Part shown: piece by piece, positions 10,851 through 23,982 of the stretch
Numbering within the stretch: the first letter of the stretch is position 1
Layout of the letters: every line of letters starts with the position of its first letter
Source of the DNA: Porphyromonadaceae bacterium
GTDB taxonomy: Bacteria > Bacteroidota > Bacteroidia > Bacteroidales > UBA12481
Assembly (NCBI GenBank): GCA_007280905.1
Contig: QYQM01000026.1
Span: 1 to 58,492, forward strand
Direction: 5' to 3'
DNA length: 58,492 nucleotides
Notes under the pieces: generated by a model
Seen by the model: only the letters and a program-made list of their open reading frames with translations
Database searches by the model: none
Told to the model about the DNA's origin: nothing
Made by a program: the position numbers and the translations under genes

Positions 10851-12230
10851 ATGAAATACAGAATTATTGGTAAATCAGAACTTAATTTAAAACCGTTTCT
10901 TCCTTTAATTATCTCAATGATGATCCTGTTAATGGTTAACAGCTGCAAAAAGGACGACCCGGATGAGGGCGGGTGGAAAACAGCCAACTCAGGCTGTGTA
11001 ACAGCCAGCTGCCATGGAAACCCGGCACTAAAAAAGGATATAACGGTTACCGGAAAGACAATTGAATCGATCCCTCTCTATGTCGATTCCGCTGCTTATG
11101 TCAATACCCAGCACAAAGGCCAACTCTGTACTGCCTGCCATACCGATATCGTTGTGAAGAGCGGCGCTCACGGACCCAGTACAAAAGTATTCGGCGGATG
11201 GGCAAGGTTCTCCAAAACATCTGGTACCAAGGCGTTAGCGACACCTGACAGTACCAGAAATTACAGTACCGCTGCATCTACATCATGTACAACCTGCCAT
11301 GCAGAACAGTACAATGAAAATTCTGCGCACATCAAAATCCCGCGACTTCGGGAGGCTTCAATCCGTGATTTTGGAAATCATAAGGTGGGTGAGGCATACG
11401 AAGATAACAACTGCAGCCGATGCCATGCCACCTGTGCAACCTGTCACTTTAGATCAGAGATAACTCCTAAAGTTGCTTTTTATGGAGATCTGCTGGCCCA
11501 GTCTAACTGGGATGGAGTTCAGACTTCAGGCGATAATTATAATAACACTGTTTGGGCGGATGCAACGGAATGGAGAATGGATTGGACTAAAAATGTCAGC
11601 AGCCATGAGTTCCGAACCAAAGCTGACCTAAATGCATCCAATGATGTTTGCAGATCCTGCCATATTGGTTTCTACCGTCCTCCGGTGCAAGGATTTGCAA
11701 TGCGAAACGGAACGGTTGACAGTATGTATGCAACAGGGATCAAACGTCATCCGCAGTATCAGGAGCTGTCAATGGGGACTGCTCACAAGACCACTACCTG
11801 TGGAACTTGCCATGGCGAAAGTCTCCATAATCAGGTTAGCATTGCCGGCGGACCCGAATGTGTCAACTGCCATGCTGCGCAGGGTGCGAATCATCCATCG
11901 GTCAACCATATGAACCTTAAGGATGGGGTCAAGATCAAATGCATTTCATGTCACACCAGCCACCGCGCATCAGATTTCAATGGCTCAGGCCAGAGCAACT
12001 GGATCAACCCCGAAGTCACTTCCCATAATGAGATCGGACCCGTTGTGGTTAAGTACAGCGAATTGCTGAATTGGTATCCTCACTATATGACAAAGTCAGT
12101 GAATTGCACGGCACTTTGCCATTTTGATGGGAACCGTGTAGGGGCGCATGTTATTGGTGCAGAGTCAATCCCGGCTAGTCCAAAGATACCGTATGCCATC
12201 CCGATTCGTCCCGGTGAAACGGACGAGTAG
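10851..12230 (+). CDS. Multiheme c-type cytochrome lipoprotein, ten candidate hemes
   Basis: This exported lipoprotein has 459 residues (lipobox NSC at 30-32). Eight canonical CXXCH sites end in histidines 97, 150, 192, 199, 271, 321, 341 and 368. Two are unusual: a CX4CH at 49-55 (CVTASCH) and a CX3CH at 419-424 (CTALCH). Scattered distal histidines are available as second ligands. It probably acts in periplasmic or extracellular electron transfer, for example to nitrogen or sulfur oxyanions or metals. The exact substrate is not readable. It follows a NarX/NarL-like pair on the same strand. The complete heme operon lies about 16 kb downstream. Confidence 0.85.
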   Translation: MKYRIIGKSELNLKPFLPLIISMMILLMVNSCKKDDPDEGGWKTANSGCVTASCHGNPALKKDITVTGKTIESIPLYVDSAAYVNTQHKGQLCTACHTDIVVKSGAHGPSTKVFGGWARFSKTSGTKALATPDSTRNYSTAASTSCTTCHAEQYNENSAHIKIPRLREASIRDFGNHKVGEAYEDNNCSRCHATCATCHFRSEITPKVAFYGDLLAQSNWDGVQTSGDNYNNTVWADATEWRMDWTKNVSSHEFRTKADLNASNDVCRSCHIGFYRPPVQGFAMRNGTVDSMYATGIKRHPQYQELSMGTAHKTTTCGTCHGESLHNQVSIAGGPECVNCHAAQGANHPSVNHMNLKDGVKIKCISCHTSHRASDFNGSGQSNWINPEVTSHNEIGPVVVKYSELLNWYPHYMTKSVNCTALCHFDGNRVGAHVIGAESIPASPKIPYAIPIRPGETDE

Positions 12231-14731: not shown

Positions 14732-14761
14732 TGTATTATTTAGATAAAAAGTTAGCTTTGG
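14732..14761 (+). promoter_or_regulatory. Bacteroidota-type promoter of the metal efflux operon
   Basis: TTG at 14732-14734 and TAGCTTTG at 14754-14761 are separated by 19 bases. They match the phylum -33 TTTG and -7 TAnnTTTG pattern with the usual spacing. Transcription would start near 14768, which favours the ATG at 14784 over the one at 14769. Confidence 0.6.
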
Positions 14762-14783
14762 CACCTTAATGTTCCTATGGGAA

Positions 14784-15212
14784 ATGTTTAAAAGATCAGC
14801 TGGTTTGCTATTTATTCTCATTGCCAATATTTTATTGGTCGCCCATAGCATTCTTCCACACCAACATTTTGGCGGATTTGCCTGGATTCATGCTGATCAT
14901 TATGAAGATCAAAACGAGCCAGCCGGAATTCACACTGAAGATGCTGATCACAAACATGAGGATCACGATAACGATCAGGCCTGCTTATTAAAGCAAGCCT
15001 ACCTGGTTCCGGCGAATTCATCCAGGCTGGACTGTCCACTGGTTGATCAATTGAACCAAAATTTTGATTTTCAGCTAATATATACTAATCAGGATACTTC
15101 AAGATATCTTCCATTCTTTTATAAAATTCCTGTCCCTCCGCTATTACTCCTTGGGAGATATTCTTTGCTCGTAACCTGTTGTGTTGGGTTGCGTGCTCCG
15201 CCTGCCCTTTAA
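14784..15212 (+). CDS. Small exported His-rich protein of the metal efflux operon
   Basis: The protein has about 142 residues and an N-terminal membrane segment (SAGLLFILIANILLVAHS). A histidine- and acid-rich stretch follows, with HQHFGGFAWIHADHYED and then HTEDADHKHEDHD, suited to binding divalent metals in the periplasm. The C-terminus is hydrophobic and ends LRAPPAL. Such short proteins often precede CzcCBA/CusCBA genes in Bacteroidota (I recall DUF6769, not certain). I chose ATG 14784 because the predicted transcription start is near 14768. ATG 14769 is the alternative. Confidence 0.7.
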   Translation: MFKRSAGLLFILIANILLVAHSILPHQHFGGFAWIHADHYEDQNEPAGIHTEDADHKHEDHDNDQACLLKQAYLVPANSSRLDCPLVDQLNQNFDFQLIYTNQDTSRYLPFFYKIPVPPLLLLGRYSLLVTCCVGLRAPPAL

Positions 15213-15307
15213 GATTTCCAACCCTTTTGTAAAGCAATAGTCAAACGGCTATTGCTATGCTCTCTGCATGCTTTTAATTGTAATCCAACATTTTAATACT
15301 TCATTCG

Positions 15308-16807
15308 ATGAAAAAGACACTGTTTCTTTTTGCTTTACTTGTCCTGGTAGTGGCAGGTTGCAAAAACAAGAAAGAAGAAATTCCGGTAATAGCCGAACAA
15401 GTCAACCTACAACTTACCGCGTATTCCAATGAATTCGAAGTTTATGCCGAAGCTAAACCGTTTGTAGTTGGCAAGATGTCCAATGTTCTGTCACATTTTT
15501 CTCATCTACCTGATTTTAAAGCCTTTCAAAAAGGTGTGATGACGATCAGGTTATTGGTAGATGGGTCAGAAGTGAATCAGGTTTTAGACAAACCCACCCG
15601 GAAAGGTATTTACAGCTTCGACCTCACGCCGAAAACTCCGGGTGCGGGGAAAATAATTTATGATATCAATGTTGATGGGGCAGAATATCAGGTTGTTGTG
15701 CAAGATATTGTAGTGTATTCCGATGAGTCAGCCGCTTCAGAAGCAGCCAAAATTAAGGGTGCTTCCAGAACCAATGCCACGTAATTTACCAAAGAACAGA
15801 CTTGGAAAATAGATTTTGCCACCGAATTTCCTGAGTCAGGAAGCTTTGGACAGATGATCAAAACAACCGGCAGGGTGGAATCAGCCCAGGGGGACGAACA
15901 ACTGATCGTTGCAAAAACGAGAGGAATTGTCACTTTCCGGGGAGATAACCTTCTGGCAGGTAACCCTGTTACTAAGGGTAATACCCTCGTGACCATAGCG
16001 GGAAGCGGATTGGCTGATAATAATTCAGCAGTCCGGTTTGCCGAAGCACAGAATAATTATCAAAAAACAAAAACCGACCTGGAACGGGCGGTGAAACTGG
16101 CCAAGGATAAAATCGTTTCCGACAAAGACCTGGCGAAAGCACAGAATGATTTCGATAACGCCAGCGCCATCTTTGAGAATCTGAGAAAGAATTTCAGTGC
16201 TACCGGGCAATCGGTAACGAGTCCGATCACCGGTTTTATCAAACAGCTTTTCGTTCACAACGGTCAGTTTATCGAAGCCGGACAGCCGGTTGCTATCGTT
16301 TCACAAAACAAAACCCTGTTGATCAGCGCCGATATACAGCAAAAATATGCGTCGATCCTCGGGTCAATTGTCTCCGCCAATATCCGGACACTCCATGATA
16401 ATAAGGCGTATACACTCGAAAAACTAAATGGCAAAGTGCTTTCTTTCGGGCGTTCAGCCAACAGCGATAACTACCTGATTCCATTAAGTCTTCAGATTGA
16501 TAACACCGGCAGTTTTATCCCCGGTGGATTTGTTGAAATATACCTCAAAACTGTAACCGTTGCAGATGCTATTACGGTGCCTAACAGTGCCATCATGGAA
16601 GATCAGGGAAACTTTTTTCTCTATATTCAGATTCATCCTGAATTATTTGAAAAAAGGGCTGTAAAAATCGGTTCTACCGATGGAATCCGAACCGAGATCA
16701 GAGATGGAGCCTTGATCACGGACCGCATCATTACGCAGGGAGCGATTCTTGTAAAATTGGCGCAGGCAACCGGAACACTGGATGCACATTCCGGTCACAA
16801 TCATTAA
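15308..16807 (+). pseudogene. CusB/CzcB-like efflux adaptor gene with an in-frame stop
   Basis: One reading frame encodes a periplasmic adaptor of about 499 residues but is broken by TAA at 15782-15784 (codon 159). Before the stop come a lipoprotein leader (LLVLVVAGCKNK) and an N-terminal adaptor domain. After it, in the same frame, come FTKEQTWKIDFATEFPESG, a lipoyl-like half with GQMIKTTGRVESAQ, a coiled hairpin (about 245-290), a beta-barrel domain and a metal-type tail ending HSGHNH. No shift in frame occurs. The internal ATG at 15854 has no clear ribosome site. Causes could be a nonsense mutation, a sequencing error or readthrough. The pump and channel genes downstream look intact. Confidence 0.85.
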
Positions 16808-16819
16808 TCATTTGAATCT

Positions 16820-19800
16820 ATGATAAATACAATATTAAAATTCTCGCTGAACAACAGGTTTTTTATCTTGTTGTGTGCAGTGGTGTTGGTGATTGTGGGT
16901 TTACGTACCGCATCCAATATGGACGTGGATGTATTCCCTGATCTGACCGCCCCCACCGTGGTGGTTATGACCGATGCCCACGGAATGGCTCCTGAAGAAG
17001 TAGAGCGAATGGTCACTTTTCCAATCGAGACTGCTGTGAATGGAGCGACCGATGTTCGCAGGGTTCGCTCGGTATCTTCCCAAGGCTTCTCCTTTGTTTG
17101 GGTTGAATTTGATTGGGGTGCCGACATCTTCAAGGCCAGACAGATCGTGAGTGAAAAACTCATTACGATTTCATCCCAGATGCCTTTGGGTGTTGGTAAG
17201 CCTACTTTGGCCCCACAATCCAGCGTGATGGGAGAAATGTTCTTCATCGGTATTCAGGCCGATAGCACCAGCCTGATGGATCTGCGGACCATTGCTGACT
17301 GGAATATTAAACCGATGCTGCTTGCCACGGGAGGGGTTTCTCAGGTAACTATTATCGGCGGTGACTATAAACAATACCAGGTATTGGCTGATCCGCAAAA
17401 GATGAAGTTTTATGGAATTTCAATCAGTGAGCTGACTGAGGTTTGCCAAACCATTAGCCGCAATTCCACCGGCGGAGCGGTCCGGCAATTTGGTAATGAG
17501 TACCTGGTAAGGGGTATGGCCCGAACTTCCGATCTTGATGCTCTTGGCAATTCATTTATTAAAAACATTAATGGAAAGCCGGTTAAGATTAACGACGTGT
17601 GCGAAGTGCGGATCGGCGGTGCCATTAAAATGGGTTATGCTTCCGAAAACGCCACGCCATCGGTGATCATTTCGATATCGAAACAGCCCCGTACCAATAC
17701 CGTTGATTTAACCAAACGGATTGAAGCCAACCTGGCCAACCTGAAAGAAACACTGCCTGCTGATGTCAGATTGGATACTCATATTTTCAGGCAGGCGGAT
17801 TTTATCGAAACTTCGGTGAATAACGTTAAAGACGCCCTTTTGGAAGGCTCAATCTTTGTCATTCTCATACTTTTCCTGTTTTTAGGGAGTGTAAGGACAA
17901 CCCTGATATCCCTCCTGGCTATTCCGCTATCCCTTTTGGGTGCCATTCTCGCGCTTAAAGGATTGGGTCTGAACATAAACACGATGAGTTTAGGGGGGAT
18001 GGCAATCGCGATCGGTGTGCTGGTTGACGATGCAATCATAAATGTTGAGAATTGTTTTAAACGATTGCGCCAGAACCATCTGAAACCGCCGGAGGAACGA
18101 CAATCTGCCTTTACCGTTGTATTTAATGCCTCTAAGGAGATCCAGGCATCTATCGTAAATGCTACCCTGATCATCATTGTTGCATTTTTGCCACTGTTCT
18201 TTCTTTCCGGTATGGAAGGCCGGATGTTGAAACCGTTGGGAATTGCCTTTATCGTTTCATTGTTTGTATCGCTGGTGGTGGCGATGACGCTCACACCTTT
18301 GCTGTGCAGACTCCTGTTATCCGATAAGAAATACCTGACTAAGAACCAGAAAGAAAAATGGCTCACACGCCAATTGACTCAATATTATCAAAAATCACTG
18401 GTATGGGCTTTGTCGCATAAGAAGGTCGTCCTATTATCATCGTTGGGTCTTTTGGTGGCGGCAATTATCGCATTTACTTCTCTGGGTCGCAGTTTTCTTC
18501 CGGAATTTAACGAGGGTTCACTTACCCTTTCAGTGGTTTGCAAGCCCGGAGCCTCGCTCGATGAGAGCAACCGACTGGGTAATCTGGTGGAAACGGAGCT
18601 GTTATCAATCCCCGAAGTAACCAGTACCGCACGCCGTACCGGCCGCGGAGAGCTGGATGAACATTCCCAAACGGTTAACAGTGCCGAGGTGGATGTTAAT
18701 TTTACTGTCAGGGACCGGCCTCGCGAGGACTTTATGGCTGAAGTCCGTTCAAAACTGGCTGGCATCCCCGGTATAGCTGCCACGGTTGGACAACCGCTTG
18801 GCCACCGGATTGATCATATGCTTTCAGGAACACGGGCAAACATTGCCATAAAAATCTTCGGTTCTAATCTAAATGAGATGTTTTCAGTTGGGAATCAGGT
18901 TAAAAGCGTAATTAAAGACATTCCTGGTCTGGTGGATGTTAATGTGGATCAGCAGATTGAAATTCCGCAGATTCAGATTCGTGCCAATCGTGAAATGTTA
19001 TCGCAATACGGAATCTCAATAGGCCAGTTTAACGAATTTGTTGATATCGCCTTCGGTGGTGAGAAACTGGCCGACATTTATGAAGGCCAGCGCCGGGTTG
19101 ATCTGGTCTTGCGGTTGAATCAGGATTATACCGAAACCATTGATGGTATCCGGTCGGCTTTAATTGATACGGAAGATGGGAAACAGGTCCCGCTCGAAGA
19201 GGTTGCCTCGATTGTTTCCGTTGCAGGTCCGGGGACGATCAGCCGGGAGAATGTCCAGCGGAAGATTGTGGTATCGGCCAATGTCACGGGCAGGGATATC
19301 CGGAGCGTAGTGAAGGATATTCAGAAGAATGTCAATGAAAAGATCGTTTTACCTGAAGACTTTCGAATTGAATATGGCGGTCAGTTTGAGAGTGAAGCGC
19401 GTGCCTCACAATCCCTGCTGATCACATCGATCCTGGCTCTGTTTGTTATATTTCTCCTTCTATTCCAGGAGTTTAAGAACTTTCGGTTAGCCGGGATTAT
19501 TATGTTGAACCTTCCGCTCGCATTGATCGGCGGGGTCTTCTCCATTTACTTTACTTCCGGAATACTGAGCATTCCCGCTATTATTGGTTTCATTACCCTG
19601 TTTGGCATCGCCACAAGAAATGGAATCCTTTTGGTAGCTAACTATCAGAATTTGGAAAAGCAGGGTTCTCCTCTTTACACCATTGTAACCAAAGGCTCAA
19701 CAGATCGATTGAACCCGATTCTGATGACCGCTCTGACCGCTGCATTGGCTCTGATACCACTGGCCATGAAAGGAGATTTATCCGGTAATGAAATACAGAG

Positions 19801-19921
19801 CCCCATGGCGAAGGTGATATTAGGCGGACTATTGACATCCACATTACTCAACATTTATGTGGTACCCATCATGTACAGCATATTTAAAAAGTCGGGAACT
19901 CCAAAAATTGAAACATTATGA
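16820..19921 (+). CDS. CusA/CzcA-like heavy metal RND pump
   Basis: This is a full-length RND transporter of 1033 residues. TM1 is near 13-30, followed by VDVFPDLTAPTVVVMTDAHG, which is close to the HME subfamily. TM4 carries IAIGVLVDDAIINVENCF, and the second half opens with FLPEFNEGSLTL. It has the duplicated fold with two periplasmic porter loops. Together with the adaptor upstream and the outer membrane channel overlapping at its 3' end it would expel monovalent or divalent metal ions (copper, silver, zinc, cobalt). The His-rich proteins in the operon and the neighbouring CusSR-like genes support metal export. Confidence 0.9.
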   Translation: MINTILKFSLNNRFFILLCAVVLVIVGLRTASNMDVDVFPDLTAPTVVVMTDAHGMAPEEVERMVTFPIETAVNGATDVRRVRSVSSQGFSFVWVEFDWGADIFKARQIVSEKLITISSQMPLGVGKPTLAPQSSVMGEMFFIGIQADSTSLMDLRTIADWNIKPMLLATGGVSQVTIIGGDYKQYQVLADPQKMKFYGISISELTEVCQTISRNSTGGAVRQFGNEYLVRGMARTSDLDALGNSFIKNINGKPVKINDVCEVRIGGAIKMGYASENATPSVIISISKQPRTNTVDLTKRIEANLANLKETLPADVRLDTHIFRQADFIETSVNNVKDALLEGSIFVILILFLFLGSVRTTLISLLAIPLSLLGAILALKGLGLNINTMSLGGMAIAIGVLVDDAIINVENCFKRLRQNHLKPPEERQSAFTVVFNASKEIQASIVNATLIIIVAFLPLFFLSGMEGRMLKPLGIAFIVSLFVSLVVAMTLTPLLCRLLLSDKKYLTKNQKEKWLTRQLTQYYQKSLVWALSHKKVVLLSSLGLLVAAIIAFTSLGRSFLPEFNEGSLTLSVVCKPGASLDESNRLGNLVETELLSIPEVTSTARRTGRGELDEHSQTVNSAEVDVNFTVRDRPREDFMAEVRSKLAGIPGIAATVGQPLGHRIDHMLSGTRANIAIKIFGSNLNEMFSVGNQVKSVIKDIPGLVDVNVDQQIEIPQIQIRANREMLSQYGISIGQFNEFVDIAFGGEKLADIYEGQRRVDLVLRLNQDYTETIDGIRSALIDTEDGKQVPLEEVASIVSVAGPGTISRENVQRKIVVSANVTGRDIRSVVKDIQKNVNEKIVLPEDFRIEYGGQFESEARASQSLLITSILALFVIFLLLFQEFKNFRLAGIIMLNLPLALIGGVFSIYFTSGILSIPAIIGFITLFGIATRNGILLVANYQNLEKQGSPLYTIVTKGSTDRLNPILMTALTAALALIPLAMKGDLSGNEIQSPMAKVILGGLLTSTLLNIYVVPIMYSIFKKSGTPKIETL

Positions 19922-21099
19922 AAGCACTTGTTATAGTAATATTCTTCCTGACAACCGGTTATTCCTCCCTCCTGGCCCAGGGAAGCGTGGACCGGATTGT
20001 GGCAGAGATTGAAAAAAACAATACCGGTTTGTCGGCATTGCGCAAGAAAGCTGAAGCACAAAAACTGGGAAATAAAACAGGAATCTATCTGAAGAATCCT
20101 GAAATCGGATTCAATTACCTGTGGGGCAACCCAACGATGATCGGAAACCGCGTGGACCTGAGTTTTGAGCAAACTTTTGATTTTCCTACGGCTTACCGCT
20201 ACAAAAGTCAGATTGCCGATGGTCGTGATCAACAGGTTGATATTGATTACCAGCAACAAAGATTAGGGCTGATCACGCAGGTTAGGATGCTTTGCATTGA
20301 TCTGGCTCATACCTATGCATTGGAGAATGAATTTGCCAGGCGGCTGGAGCATGCACAAAGTATCGTCAAATCGTATCAGGCGAAATTCGACCAGGGAGAT
20401 GCCGGGATTCTGGAACTGAATAAAGCCCGGTTGAACTTTCTGGGTATCCGGAAGGAAGCTGAAGCCAACGGCATTGAATATCAATCCCTGCTTGCAGAAC
20501 TTGCAACTCTAAATGGTGGAATACCTATTGCATGGAGTGAAAGTATCTATCCATCGCGTGAGATACCGGCTGATTTTGAACAATGGTACCAGCAGGCCGA
20601 AAAGAGCAATCCAATGTTAACCTGGTTACGAAAAGAGCTTGAGATCAGCCAGCAACAGGAGAAACTGCAATTTGCGCTTGGTCTGCCCAAATTTTCAACC
20701 GGTTATCTCAATGAGAAAATCGTTGGAGAGCACTTTCAGGGGGTCACGTTGGGTATGTCTATCCCTCTTTGGGAGAACAAGAATGCGGTAAAGCAAGCCA
20801 AAGCACAATTTTTGGCGGTGCAGGATGTTGAACGTGATCGTAAACTAATGTTTTACAATCAGCTGAAGATGTTACATGCCAAAGCTGTCCGTTTACAGCA
20901 ATCAACCGGTGATTACCGGTTGGCTCTGCAAACTGTCGATAATGGCAGTTTCCTTGGTAAAGCACTTGAAGCCGGAGAAATCTCGTTGATTGACTACATT
21001 CTCGAACTATCCCTGTATTACGAGAGCCAAACAAGGCTTTTAGCCGCTGAGCGCGACCTGAACAGGGTGATCTCAGAGTTATACCAATTTCTGGAATGA
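19918..21099 (+). CDS. CusC/CzcC-like outer membrane efflux protein
   Basis: The protein has 393 residues with a signal peptide (VIVIFFLTTGYSSLLAQG). Outer membrane factor repeats include VDRIVAEIEKNNTGLSALRK at the start and AGEISLIDYILELSLYYE near the end. It starts inside the stop of the RND gene (ATGA overlap), so it is translationally coupled as the last gene of the metal efflux operon. It would form the channel through the outer membrane. The operon converges with a two-component operon about 45 bases further on. Confidence 0.88.
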   Translation: MKALVIVIFFLTTGYSSLLAQGSVDRIVAEIEKNNTGLSALRKKAEAQKLGNKTGIYLKNPEIGFNYLWGNPTMIGNRVDLSFEQTFDFPTAYRYKSQIADGRDQQVDIDYQQQRLGLITQVRMLCIDLAHTYALENEFARRLEHAQSIVKSYQAKFDQGDAGILELNKARLNFLGIRKEAEANGIEYQSLLAELATLNGGIPIAWSESIYPSREIPADFEQWYQQAEKSNPMLTWLRKELEISQQQEKLQFALGLPKFSTGYLNEKIVGEHFQGVTLGMSIPLWENKNAVKQAKAQFLAVQDVERDRKLMFYNQLKMLHAKAVRLQQSTGDYRLALQTVDNGSFLGKALEAGEISLIDYILELSLYYESQTRLLAAERDLNRVISELYQFLE

Positions 21100-21143: not shown

Positions 21144-22472
21144 TTATAATTTGCATCGGATCACAAACCGGGTGCCTTCCCGGGGCTTCGAAAAAACCTT
21201 AATATTGAAATGCAGGTAATCAACAATTTTTTTAACCAGGGCCAGCCCTAGCCCGAAATTATTCCCGCTCTCCTGAAATTTTTTGAACCGGGTAAAAATG
21301 TTAGGAAGGTTTTCCTCCGGAATTCCGATTCCATTGTCCACGATCTCAACCACTGGGGTATCGCTTTCCGAAAACAGTTGAACCATGATCCTGCCTCCGT
21401 CAGGCGTATATTTTATTGCATTATTCACCAGGTTGAAAAACAAAATATGCAGCAGCTCCCGGTTACCCTGAATGTAAATAGGTTCATCCGGAATTCTAAG
21501 CTCAAATTCCTGATTCTTCTGCTCAAAATGTTCCTGGAAATCGGTGGCCAGGCTACCAAGCAATTCGTTAAGGTTTACCTGGTCCGCCAGCAGATATTCC
21601 TCATTATCGATCCTCGACAATAAAAGAAGAGTCCGAACCATTTTGGTCAATCTTCCCAGTGTGACTTTTGACTCGATGATTTTTACCGTTTCATCATCAG
21701 TAAGTTGAGTGGTGTTTATGAAATTATCGAGTTTGGTCCTGATGATGCTGATCGGGGTTAGCAATTCGTGGGAAATATTACTGATATAATCCCTTTCCTC
21801 ATTAAATGCATGTTCAATTTTTCTCATCAATCCGTGAATATTTTCTTCCAGATCTTTGAAATCCGAGGTTGAGGTCTTTACCGGGGTATAATCAAAATTT
21901 TTTGGGTGATCGGAAGCTTTCAGGCGTTCGATAATCCGGCCAAATGGCCTTAAAAGGTATTGGGTAGTTAATAACTCAAACAGGATGGTAACCGCCAGCA
22001 AAACCAGCAGAAAATAAAAGGTGAATTTTTTGATCAGCTTTTGAAATGCAATAATACTGTTGATGCTTTTGCCGATTTCAATCAAATAGAAACTACCCTT
22101 TGATTCAAAGGTTGCACTGATCATGCGGTATTCGAAAGTTTCACCCTCGATAGCCCTTTCGGAATAATCGATCTCCTCAAACAGCGTGGTATCGGTAACC
22201 TTCTCAATGGAAATATACTCCTCTTTAAGAATGTTGTAGCTGCCAAACGCTTGCTTGTCGCTACCTTGTTTGATAAATTCTTCTACACCGTACTGCTCAA
22301 CCAGTCCATACGTTTTATCGAGACTAACAATCAACTGATTATCAAGATCTTTTATCGACATCTGATTAACCAGCCATGGAATAATGAAGACAGAAATTGC
22401 TATGATCAAAGCCTTTGAGAGGGCACTGATAATGGATATTTTATTTTTAAGCTTTATTCTGTCGGTGAACAT
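21144..22472 (-). CDS. CusS-like sensor histidine kinase
   Basis: The protein has 442 residues. TM1 is near 15-36, followed by a periplasmic sensor of about 115 residues and TM2 near 151-172. A HAMP-like linker precedes the dimerisation helix with ISNISHELLTPISIIRTKLD (phospho-histidine near 235). The ATPase domain has NLVNNAIKYTPDGG, DNGIGIPEENLPNIFTRF and FGLGLALVKKI. It shares a TAATG overlap with the response regulator gene upstream. Position next to the Cus-type efflux operon suggests it senses periplasmic metal. The sensor domain itself has no obvious metal motif. Confidence 0.9.
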   Translation of the reverse strand: MFTDRIKLKNKISIISALSKALIIAISVFIIPWLVNQMSIKDLDNQLIVSLDKTYGLVEQYGVEEFIKQGSDKQAFGSYNILKEEYISIEKVTDTTLFEEIDYSERAIEGETFEYRMISATFESKGSFYLIEIGKSINSIIAFQKLIKKFTFYFLLVLLAVTILFELLTTQYLLRPFGRIIERLKASDHPKNFDYTPVKTSTSDFKDLEENIHGLMRKIEHAFNEERDYISNISHELLTPISIIRTKLDNFINTTQLTDDETVKIIESKVTLGRLTKMVRTLLLLSRIDNEEYLLADQVNLNELLGSLATDFQEHFEQKNQEFELRIPDEPIYIQGNRELLHILFFNLVNNAIKYTPDGGRIMVQLFSESDTPVVEIVDNGIGIPEENLPNIFTRFKKFQESGNNFGLGLALVKKIVDYLHFNIKVFSKPREGTRFVIRCKL

Positions 22473-23149
22473 TACACGTCTTCGAATTTATAACCTAATC
22501 CCCGTACGGTTTTTATATAGTTGGCCGGGTCGAAATCCCCAAGCTTTTTTCGAATGTTTTTAATATGTACATCGATATAATTCGAGTCGAAATCATCCTC
22601 GTAAAAACTGCCCCAGATATGCTCAACCAGCTGAAGCCGGTCAAGCACCCTGCCCTTATTGAGAACCAGATAGCTGAACAGGTCATACTCCTTCTTTGTG
22701 AGGTTGACGGATGATTCCAGGTAAAGCAGCTGAAGCTTGTTGATGTCGAGGGCAAAATCGCCGAATTTGATAATGGAGCTGGATTGCCCGAATTTTCTTC
22801 GTGTGATGGCCTGAAGCCTGGAGTGCAATTCAAGAATCGAAAAGGGTTTTGCCAGATAGTCATCGGCACCCGAATTAAATCCTTTCAATTTATCATCCAG
22901 TTCGCCCCTGGCAGTAATGACGATAAAATAGGCTTCGGAATTATATTTTTTGGCTTCTTTAATGAGGTCCAACCCGTTATAATCCGGCAACCCGATATCC
23001 AATAAAACAAAATCGTAAAGATTTACAGCAAGCAATTCCGAGGCATCCCTCCCATTGAAAGCGATATCGCAGTTATATTGCTCGTTTCGTAAAAACAGGG
23101 CCATTTCTTCGGCCAGACTATTTTCATCCTCAACAATTAAAATCCTCAT
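22472..23149 (-). CDS. OmpR/CusR-like response regulator
   Basis: The protein has 225 residues. The receiver has Asp8, phosphoacceptor Asp51 (LLDIGLPDYNG) and a lysine in DYLAKPF. A winged helix effector follows, with VNLTKKEYDLFSYLVLNKGR and VHIKNIRKKLG. The upstream extension of the frame is ignored because MRILIVEDEN is the standard beginning. Only two bases separate it from the stop of the beta-barrel-like gene upstream, and its stop overlaps the kinase start, so all three genes are probably co-transcribed. Confidence 0.92.
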   Translation of the reverse strand: MRILIVEDENSLAEEMALFLRNEQYNCDIAFNGRDASELLAVNLYDFVLLDIGLPDYNGLDLIKEAKKYNSEAYFIVITARGELDDKLKGFNSGADDYLAKPFSILELHSRLQAITRRKFGQSSSIIKFGDFALDINKLQLLYLESSVNLTKKEYDLFSYLVLNKGRVLDRLQLVEHIWGSFYEDDFDSNYIDVHIKNIRKKLGDFDPANYIKTVRGLGYKFEDV

Positions 23150-23151
23150 AT

Positions 23152-23982
23152 CTAAAATATTATCGCGTAACTTAAAGAAACCAGGAAACCGGACTGGTTG
23201 GTCCAGCTTTGTTCCTTCAAGGTTTTGGAAGGGATGGCATAGAACCATCCGCCGCTTAGTGTAAAACTGCCCACCGTATATTGCACAGGCAGGATCAGGC
23301 TGATATACTGATAATCAAAATTCCTTTCGGGCACATATTCACCCATATGATTCCCACCCGTATGATGAATTCCCCAGGTATGGTCGATGGTACCCGGAAT
23401 CCAGAATGTAGTGCCGAAGGAGCTCGTGAAGGTCGGCGAAAATGCCAGATAGCCGGATTTCAGGAGGAACCGGTCGAATTCGAAATCGTAGGAGAGACTG
23501 AGATCGAGGAAATAGTTATTCGTTTGTCCGATCATATAGCTGTTATCCACGGTCGCTGTAAAATCCCGGAGCCGGTAGGAGCCCGACAATTCCAGGTCAT
23601 GGTTGTAGGAGATTCCTTCGTATGCCAGATCGCCCTTGAAATGCCGGTTCGTGTAGGAAAAATCAACGTCGAATTTATCCAGGAAGGTCTTTTCATATCC
23701 AACCTGAAGTTTAAACTCATAGGTATTCGTGGTTGGAGCCAGGTATTTAAAATAATCACCCGAAGCGTACAGGCCGATATTGCTATAGTAGGCCATGTTG
23801 GCCTTTAGTGCAGGCATCTTGATGGCATTGGCCGGTCGCGAACTGTTATTGTTGCTGGTATAGCTCAGGCTGGTCAGCAAAAAACCGGGATCTTTCGTTA
23901 CCCCGGCTGATTCGGATTCTCCCTGTGCAAGGAGCGCATGGGGCAGCACGAACAGTATGATATAGGCAAAAAAGATTCGCAT
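23152..23982 (-). CDS. Putative outer membrane beta-barrel protein
   Basis: The protein has 276 residues with a signal peptide (FAYIILFVLPHALLAQ). It is then dominated by alternating amphipathic strands with aromatic ends, such as YEFKLQVGYEKTFLDKFD and FLLKSGYLAFSPTF, and ends in FLVSLSYAIIF, a typical barrel C-terminal strand. I do not recognise the family beyond that. It is encoded two bases upstream of the CusR-like gene and may be a porin or a surface component linked to the metal response. Confidence 0.7.
   Translation of the reverse strand: MRIFFAYIILFVLPHALLAQGESESAGVTKDPGFLLTSLSYTSNNNSSRPANAIKMPALKANMAYYSNIGLYASGDYFKYLAPTTNTYEFKLQVGYEKTFLDKFDVDFSYTNRHFKGDLAYEGISYNHDLELSGSYRLRDFTATVDNSYMIGQTNNYFLDLSLSYDFEFDRFLLKSGYLAFSPTFTSSFGTTFWIPGTIDHTWGIHHTGGNHMGEYVPERNFDYQYISLILPVQYTVGSFTLSGGWFYAIPSKTLKEQSWTNQSGFLVSLSYAIIF

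Follow-up and report, generated by a model that had tools for sequence, protein, structure and literature searches.

Why does the gene for the periplasmic adaptor of a bacterial metal exporter carry an in-frame stop codon, when the pump and channel genes beside it are open? This question is raised by a locus in the 58,492 nucleotides of contig QYQM01000026.1, from a Porphyromonadaceae bacterium, the whole of which is referred to here as the window. A sequence-only reading had offered three options: a sequencing error, a recent loss of the adaptor, or stop readthrough. The comparisons described below favor the second, in which the adaptor gene of this CusA/CzcA-type tripartite metal exporter probably acquired a nonsense mutation recently; they leave error with a smaller but real share and disfavor readthrough.

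An interrupted adaptor gene in a heavy-metal exporter operon

The adaptor frame (15308-16807, forward strand) spans 499 codons plus a normal stop, and its translation contains a single internal stop, a TAA at codon 159 (15782-15784), exactly where the sequence-only reading had placed it, with the same reading frame on either side. The 5' part (15308-15784) encodes 158 amino acids, comprising a leader that is lipoprotein-like by eye (LVVAGC) and an N-terminal domain, while the 3' part (15785-16807), 340 codons plus the normal stop, encodes an RND adaptor body that scores above the cutoffs for TIGR01730 (RND_mfp; 119 bits versus 94.9), HlyD_D23 (39.1 versus 30) and HlyD_3 (45.9 versus 22.2). These matches bear out the earlier identification of the gene as an adaptor. 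Its placement within the family is looser, as it scores 87.1 bits against a cutoff of 319.3 for the CzcB/NccB subfamily (TIGR00999), for which the intact orthologue L068 reaches 106.6 bits; the protein is called CzcB-like by its operon only and is not assigned to this subfamily.

The genes that follow on the same strand are uninterrupted, as had been claimed: a CusA/CzcA-family heavy-metal RND pump of 1033 amino acids (16820-19921; TIGR00914, 814.7 bits versus a cutoff of 701.45) and an outer-membrane channel of the OEP family of 393 amino acids (19918-21099; 94.9 bits versus 22). With the pump adjoining the adaptor and a channel behind it, the locus is a tripartite heavy-metal RND operon, and the relatives L068 and L071 also have reading frames for adaptor, pump and channel in this order, judged by position and length. 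A two-component system adjoins the operon on the reverse strand (21144-23248; sensor kinase 21144-22472, response regulator 22472-23248), and the best 25 family matches of each protein all fall under the curated cutoffs; from its position, this system could possibly regulate the pump operon.

Two genes upstream were also observed. A small forward-strand gene (14769-15212) encodes a 147-amino acid protein with a histidine- and acid-rich stretch and a weak likeness to DUF6769 (21.5 bits versus a Pfam cutoff of 27), and similar DNA occupies the same place in a congener (L072; blastn, window 14744-16089, 75%). Further away, a 459-amino acid protein (10851-12230) contains several CxxCH motifs and reads like a multihaem cytochrome.

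The N-terminal domain has a homologous counterpart in intact orthologues, with no significant Pfam match for either form: the 158 residues of the window adaptor match no Pfam family at 0.001, and the domains of four orthologues have no Pfam match above cutoff (one of the four has three matches, none exceeding 14.5 bits, and the other three have no match). A structure prediction for L068 from four sequences is poor overall (mean pLDDT 56.7, pTM 0.31) and good mainly in a helical hairpin and in the N-terminal domain (blocks 41-150 at 71-90), in which beta strands are predicted with fair to good confidence (residues 35-138; domain at L068:7521-8000, corresponding to window 15308-15781). Confidence in the model is low at residues 150-182, which include residue 160, the counterpart of the premature stop, so the stop looks to be placed in an apparent linker between the N-terminal domain and the adaptor body. 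ZneB is the best solved relative of L068, and the PDB matches add little given the poor model. Like the heavy-metal RND adaptors CzcB, CusB and ZneB, the window adaptor has an RND_mfp/HlyD_D23 body and is encoded before a CusA/CzcA-family pump and a channel. Unlike them, it has an extra N-terminal domain without a Pfam match at 0.001, is truncated by a stop behind this domain, and scores under the cutoff of the CzcB/NccB model.

Relatives of the gene and selection around the stop

The sequence-only reading had proposed inspecting the same locus in related genomes, and the adaptor 3' part was used as a query against 41 genomes, seven of them from the same genus; as this query starts after the stop, codon 159 itself lies outside that search. 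It returned close copies in two congeners, both metagenome assemblies. The copy in G006 is 86% identical across the 104 residues that follow the stop, at which point its contig ends, and that in G005 is 87% identical over the last 84 residues. When the gene was aligned with G006, 263 codons matched without an indel and a serine codon stood opposite the TAA, a one-base difference. Five more distant orthologues (L002 and L068-L071) are open end to end, with valine or serine opposite the TAA. The stop thus occupies a column that holds sense codons in six aligned relatives, the pattern expected of a nonsense (pseudogene) allele. The indel-free alignment also agrees with the earlier description of a lone in-frame TAA without a frame shift, and the claim of family-typical sequence on both sides was upheld by the N-terminal domain, which aligns with intact orthologues, and by the 340-codon 3' part, which aligns end to end. 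This alignment and the adaptor score of the 3' part show that the locus is not simply two reading frames that adjoin by chance.

The G005 copy is broken in a different way from the window gene, with most of the middle of the adaptor missing and further losses in the pump. Relative to the window, the G005 operon (L073, on the same contig as L015, 1-3539) has four internal losses, near 15462/16555, 17022/17208, 17854/18512 and 18816/19433, between which coding sequence is well conserved. They may be true deletions in series or damage in the metagenome assembly, and have more the look of the latter. Among the congeners, support for an intact gene comes from one partial copy, that of G006, with the five distant orthologues behind it.

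When the intact L002 protein was used as a query (E ≤1e-20) against 393 genomes sampled evenly across the order, three candidates being scored in each, 128 matches were obtained in 124 genomes, and 127 of these matches lack an internal stop, the sole exception being the window adaptor; the G005 and G006 copies are not among these 128. In the 41-genome search, four other rows contain one internal stop, namely the G005 copy, in which a TAA falls at a deletion junction, and distant matches in G040, G017 and G007 (20-23% identity).

Selection appears to have acted alike on the two parts of the gene. Relative to G006, codons 1-158 gave a dN/dS of 0.067 and codons 160-263 one of 0.070; relative to G005, the ratio was 0.089 for the first 50 codons and 0.045 for the last 83, compared with 0.042 for blocks of the pump (538 codons) and 0.074 for the channel (391 codons). 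These ratios are rough, since dS is near saturation (0.5-2.0 overall, 0.9-2.0 for the adaptor). Of the columns invariant in five relatives, the window protein retains 98 of 105 downstream of the stop and 16 of 18 upstream of it; in leave-one-out runs the five relatives themselves retain, downstream of the stop, between 105 of 112 and 105 of 128 columns, on a different denominator because each omits itself. A relative-rate count assigned no change after the stop to the window lineage, six to the congener and nine to neither, a small count, and before the stop the corresponding numbers were five, 11 and 19. Constraint on both sides of the stop counters the idea of an old pseudogene, and these patterns indicate an adaptor that was selected as one protein until very recently, or still is. 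The lack of decay past the stop implies that the stop is either very recent or an assembly error; if real, it is a young nonsense allele, in a gene whose remaining sequence is still free of decay.

Error, recoding and gene splitting as alternatives

The main competitor is a sequencing or assembly error, with the organism carrying a sense codon and an intact adaptor. An error would be expected to leave the gene equally undecayed, the TAA is one base away from the congener codon, and the source genome is in draft form, with 185 contigs, a completeness of 99.27% and a contamination of 0.56%; in addition, both congeners that carry the locus are metagenome assemblies, one of them with visible damage in this same operon. 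To set against this, 324,075 bases of the source genome (the window and 14 further stretches) were scanned mechanically for pairs of open reading frames in which each part had a coding-like codon score and a length of at least 80 codons, a design blind to frameshifts, and no second in-frame stop of comparable kind emerged. The scan yielded 14 same-frame pairs of coding-like reading frames, among which the adaptor was alone in having no start codon within the first 12 codons of the second part. Of the 13 others, four were tested with Pfam and each half proved to have a family of its own, one consisted of the adaptor 3' part and the pump, and the remaining eight include 24345-23152, with the next longest gap (a start after 11 codons). 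Moreover, of the 22 match rows for the RND family in the source genome, 21 are free of internal stops, and the exception, which has one TGA, is partial and weak (35.4 bits). Taken together, the clean scan and the largely stop-free RND rows suggest that the assembly is not error-ridden, and it seems not to be visibly full of false stops; a single error is compatible with both observations. An error is accordingly regarded as unlikely, though well ahead of any recoding or splitting of the gene, and the weights given to it and to the young nonsense allele are judgements rather than computed odds, with one genome of the species compared.

Readthrough, in which decoding of the TAA as an amino acid would be frequent enough to supply the full adaptor, would account for the purifying selection seen both before and after the stop, and is nevertheless the least credible proposal. 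The TAA is followed by T, a strong terminator context (UAAU is proposed as the most efficient bacterial termination signal in PMC5289835), and the RNA fold around and after the stop is ordinary relative to shuffled sequences (z -0.46 and 0.24). None of the 35 tRNA matches found by ARAGORN, an incomplete set from 150 of 249 first-look candidates scored, has the anticodon TTA, CTA or TCA. The stop is not conserved, the other 127 order-wide matches being stop-free, and TAA ends many ordinary reading frames of the source genome. Context, tRNA set, RNA fold and relatives all argue against a programmed readthrough gene. As a separate observation, tRNAs for Ala, Ile and Asn are absent among the 35, which may reflect a draft that lacks rRNA operons or the incomplete scoring of candidates.

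The stop could also divide the adaptor into two functional proteins, the first a small lipoprotein made of the N-terminal domain and the second an adaptor with a new start downstream. The apparent inter-domain linker in the L068 model would suit such a division, as would the extent of the 128 order-wide matches: 62 begin before query residue 61 and so include the N-terminal domain, 61 begin at residues 127-159 and do not, and five begin later, indicating that the adaptor body can probably exist without this domain. The window sequence offers little to support re-initiation, as the first in-frame start after the stop is an ATG at 15854, 23 codons on and inside the adaptor body, its product would have no signal peptide (by eye) and no visible route to the periplasm, and no promoter-like site was found at 15600-16000. 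For these reasons a two-protein split was rejected as very improbable. Slightly more speculative still is the notion that the stop is a first step of such splitting, with the N-terminal domain becoming a free lipoprotein (a metal-binding or scaffold partner) and a re-initiated or partly read-through body still serving the pump. The interrupted adaptor gene itself is most likely a young loss-of-function allele of an ordinary kind, with error as the alternative, and the locus holds little prospect of a new mechanism.

Predicted consequences for the exporter

If the recent nonsense mutation is real, translation would halt after the N-terminal domain, at the stop observed here, and the cell would make just a 158-residue lipoprotein fragment; the 3' part would not be expected to be produced as a portion of a lipoprotein. 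With the adaptor body missing, pump and channel would not be joined and this one exporter would be inactive, by analogy with Cupriavidus metallidurans, in which the absence of CzcB leads to complete loss of efflux by the Czc pump according to PMC3870273. By this analogy, loss of the adaptor should disable the window pump.

The source genome contains other RND systems, represented by 11 further match rows that score 371 bits or more, of which one is incomplete and stops close to the end of a contig. These include a CzcA-like match in a 1466-codon frame on C171, which is 32% identical to the window pump and has an open 404-codon adaptor frame behind it. A spare copy of the interrupted adaptor was also considered and rejected, as the five other adaptor matches within this genome (E ≤0.001) are just 20-25% identical to it and none is close. 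A megablast search for plasmids gave no match, and among the literature matches listed, from queries without the organism name, no report on this adaptor gene appeared.

Natural loss of an efflux adaptor has a precedent in Neisseria gonorrhoeae, in the gene for MtrC, the adaptor of MtrCDE. As in the window, gonococcal mtrC alleles have an efflux-pump gene cut by early termination, with probable loss of MtrCDE pump activity (PMC7431566). The gonococcal losses described there arise mostly by a two-base deletion in a repeat, occur in 185 isolates (3.82%) and have a susceptibility phenotype, whereas the window stop is of the substitution type and is known here from the sequence of one genome. MtrCDE is a drug pump, while the window operon is of the heavy-metal type.

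If real, the stop shows a single bacterial population that has recently lost one metal exporter and whose operon has yet to decay. Exporter losses of this type may hint at relaxed metal stress, and the present case also shows how an annotation based solely on the pump gene would assign this genome a function wrongly.
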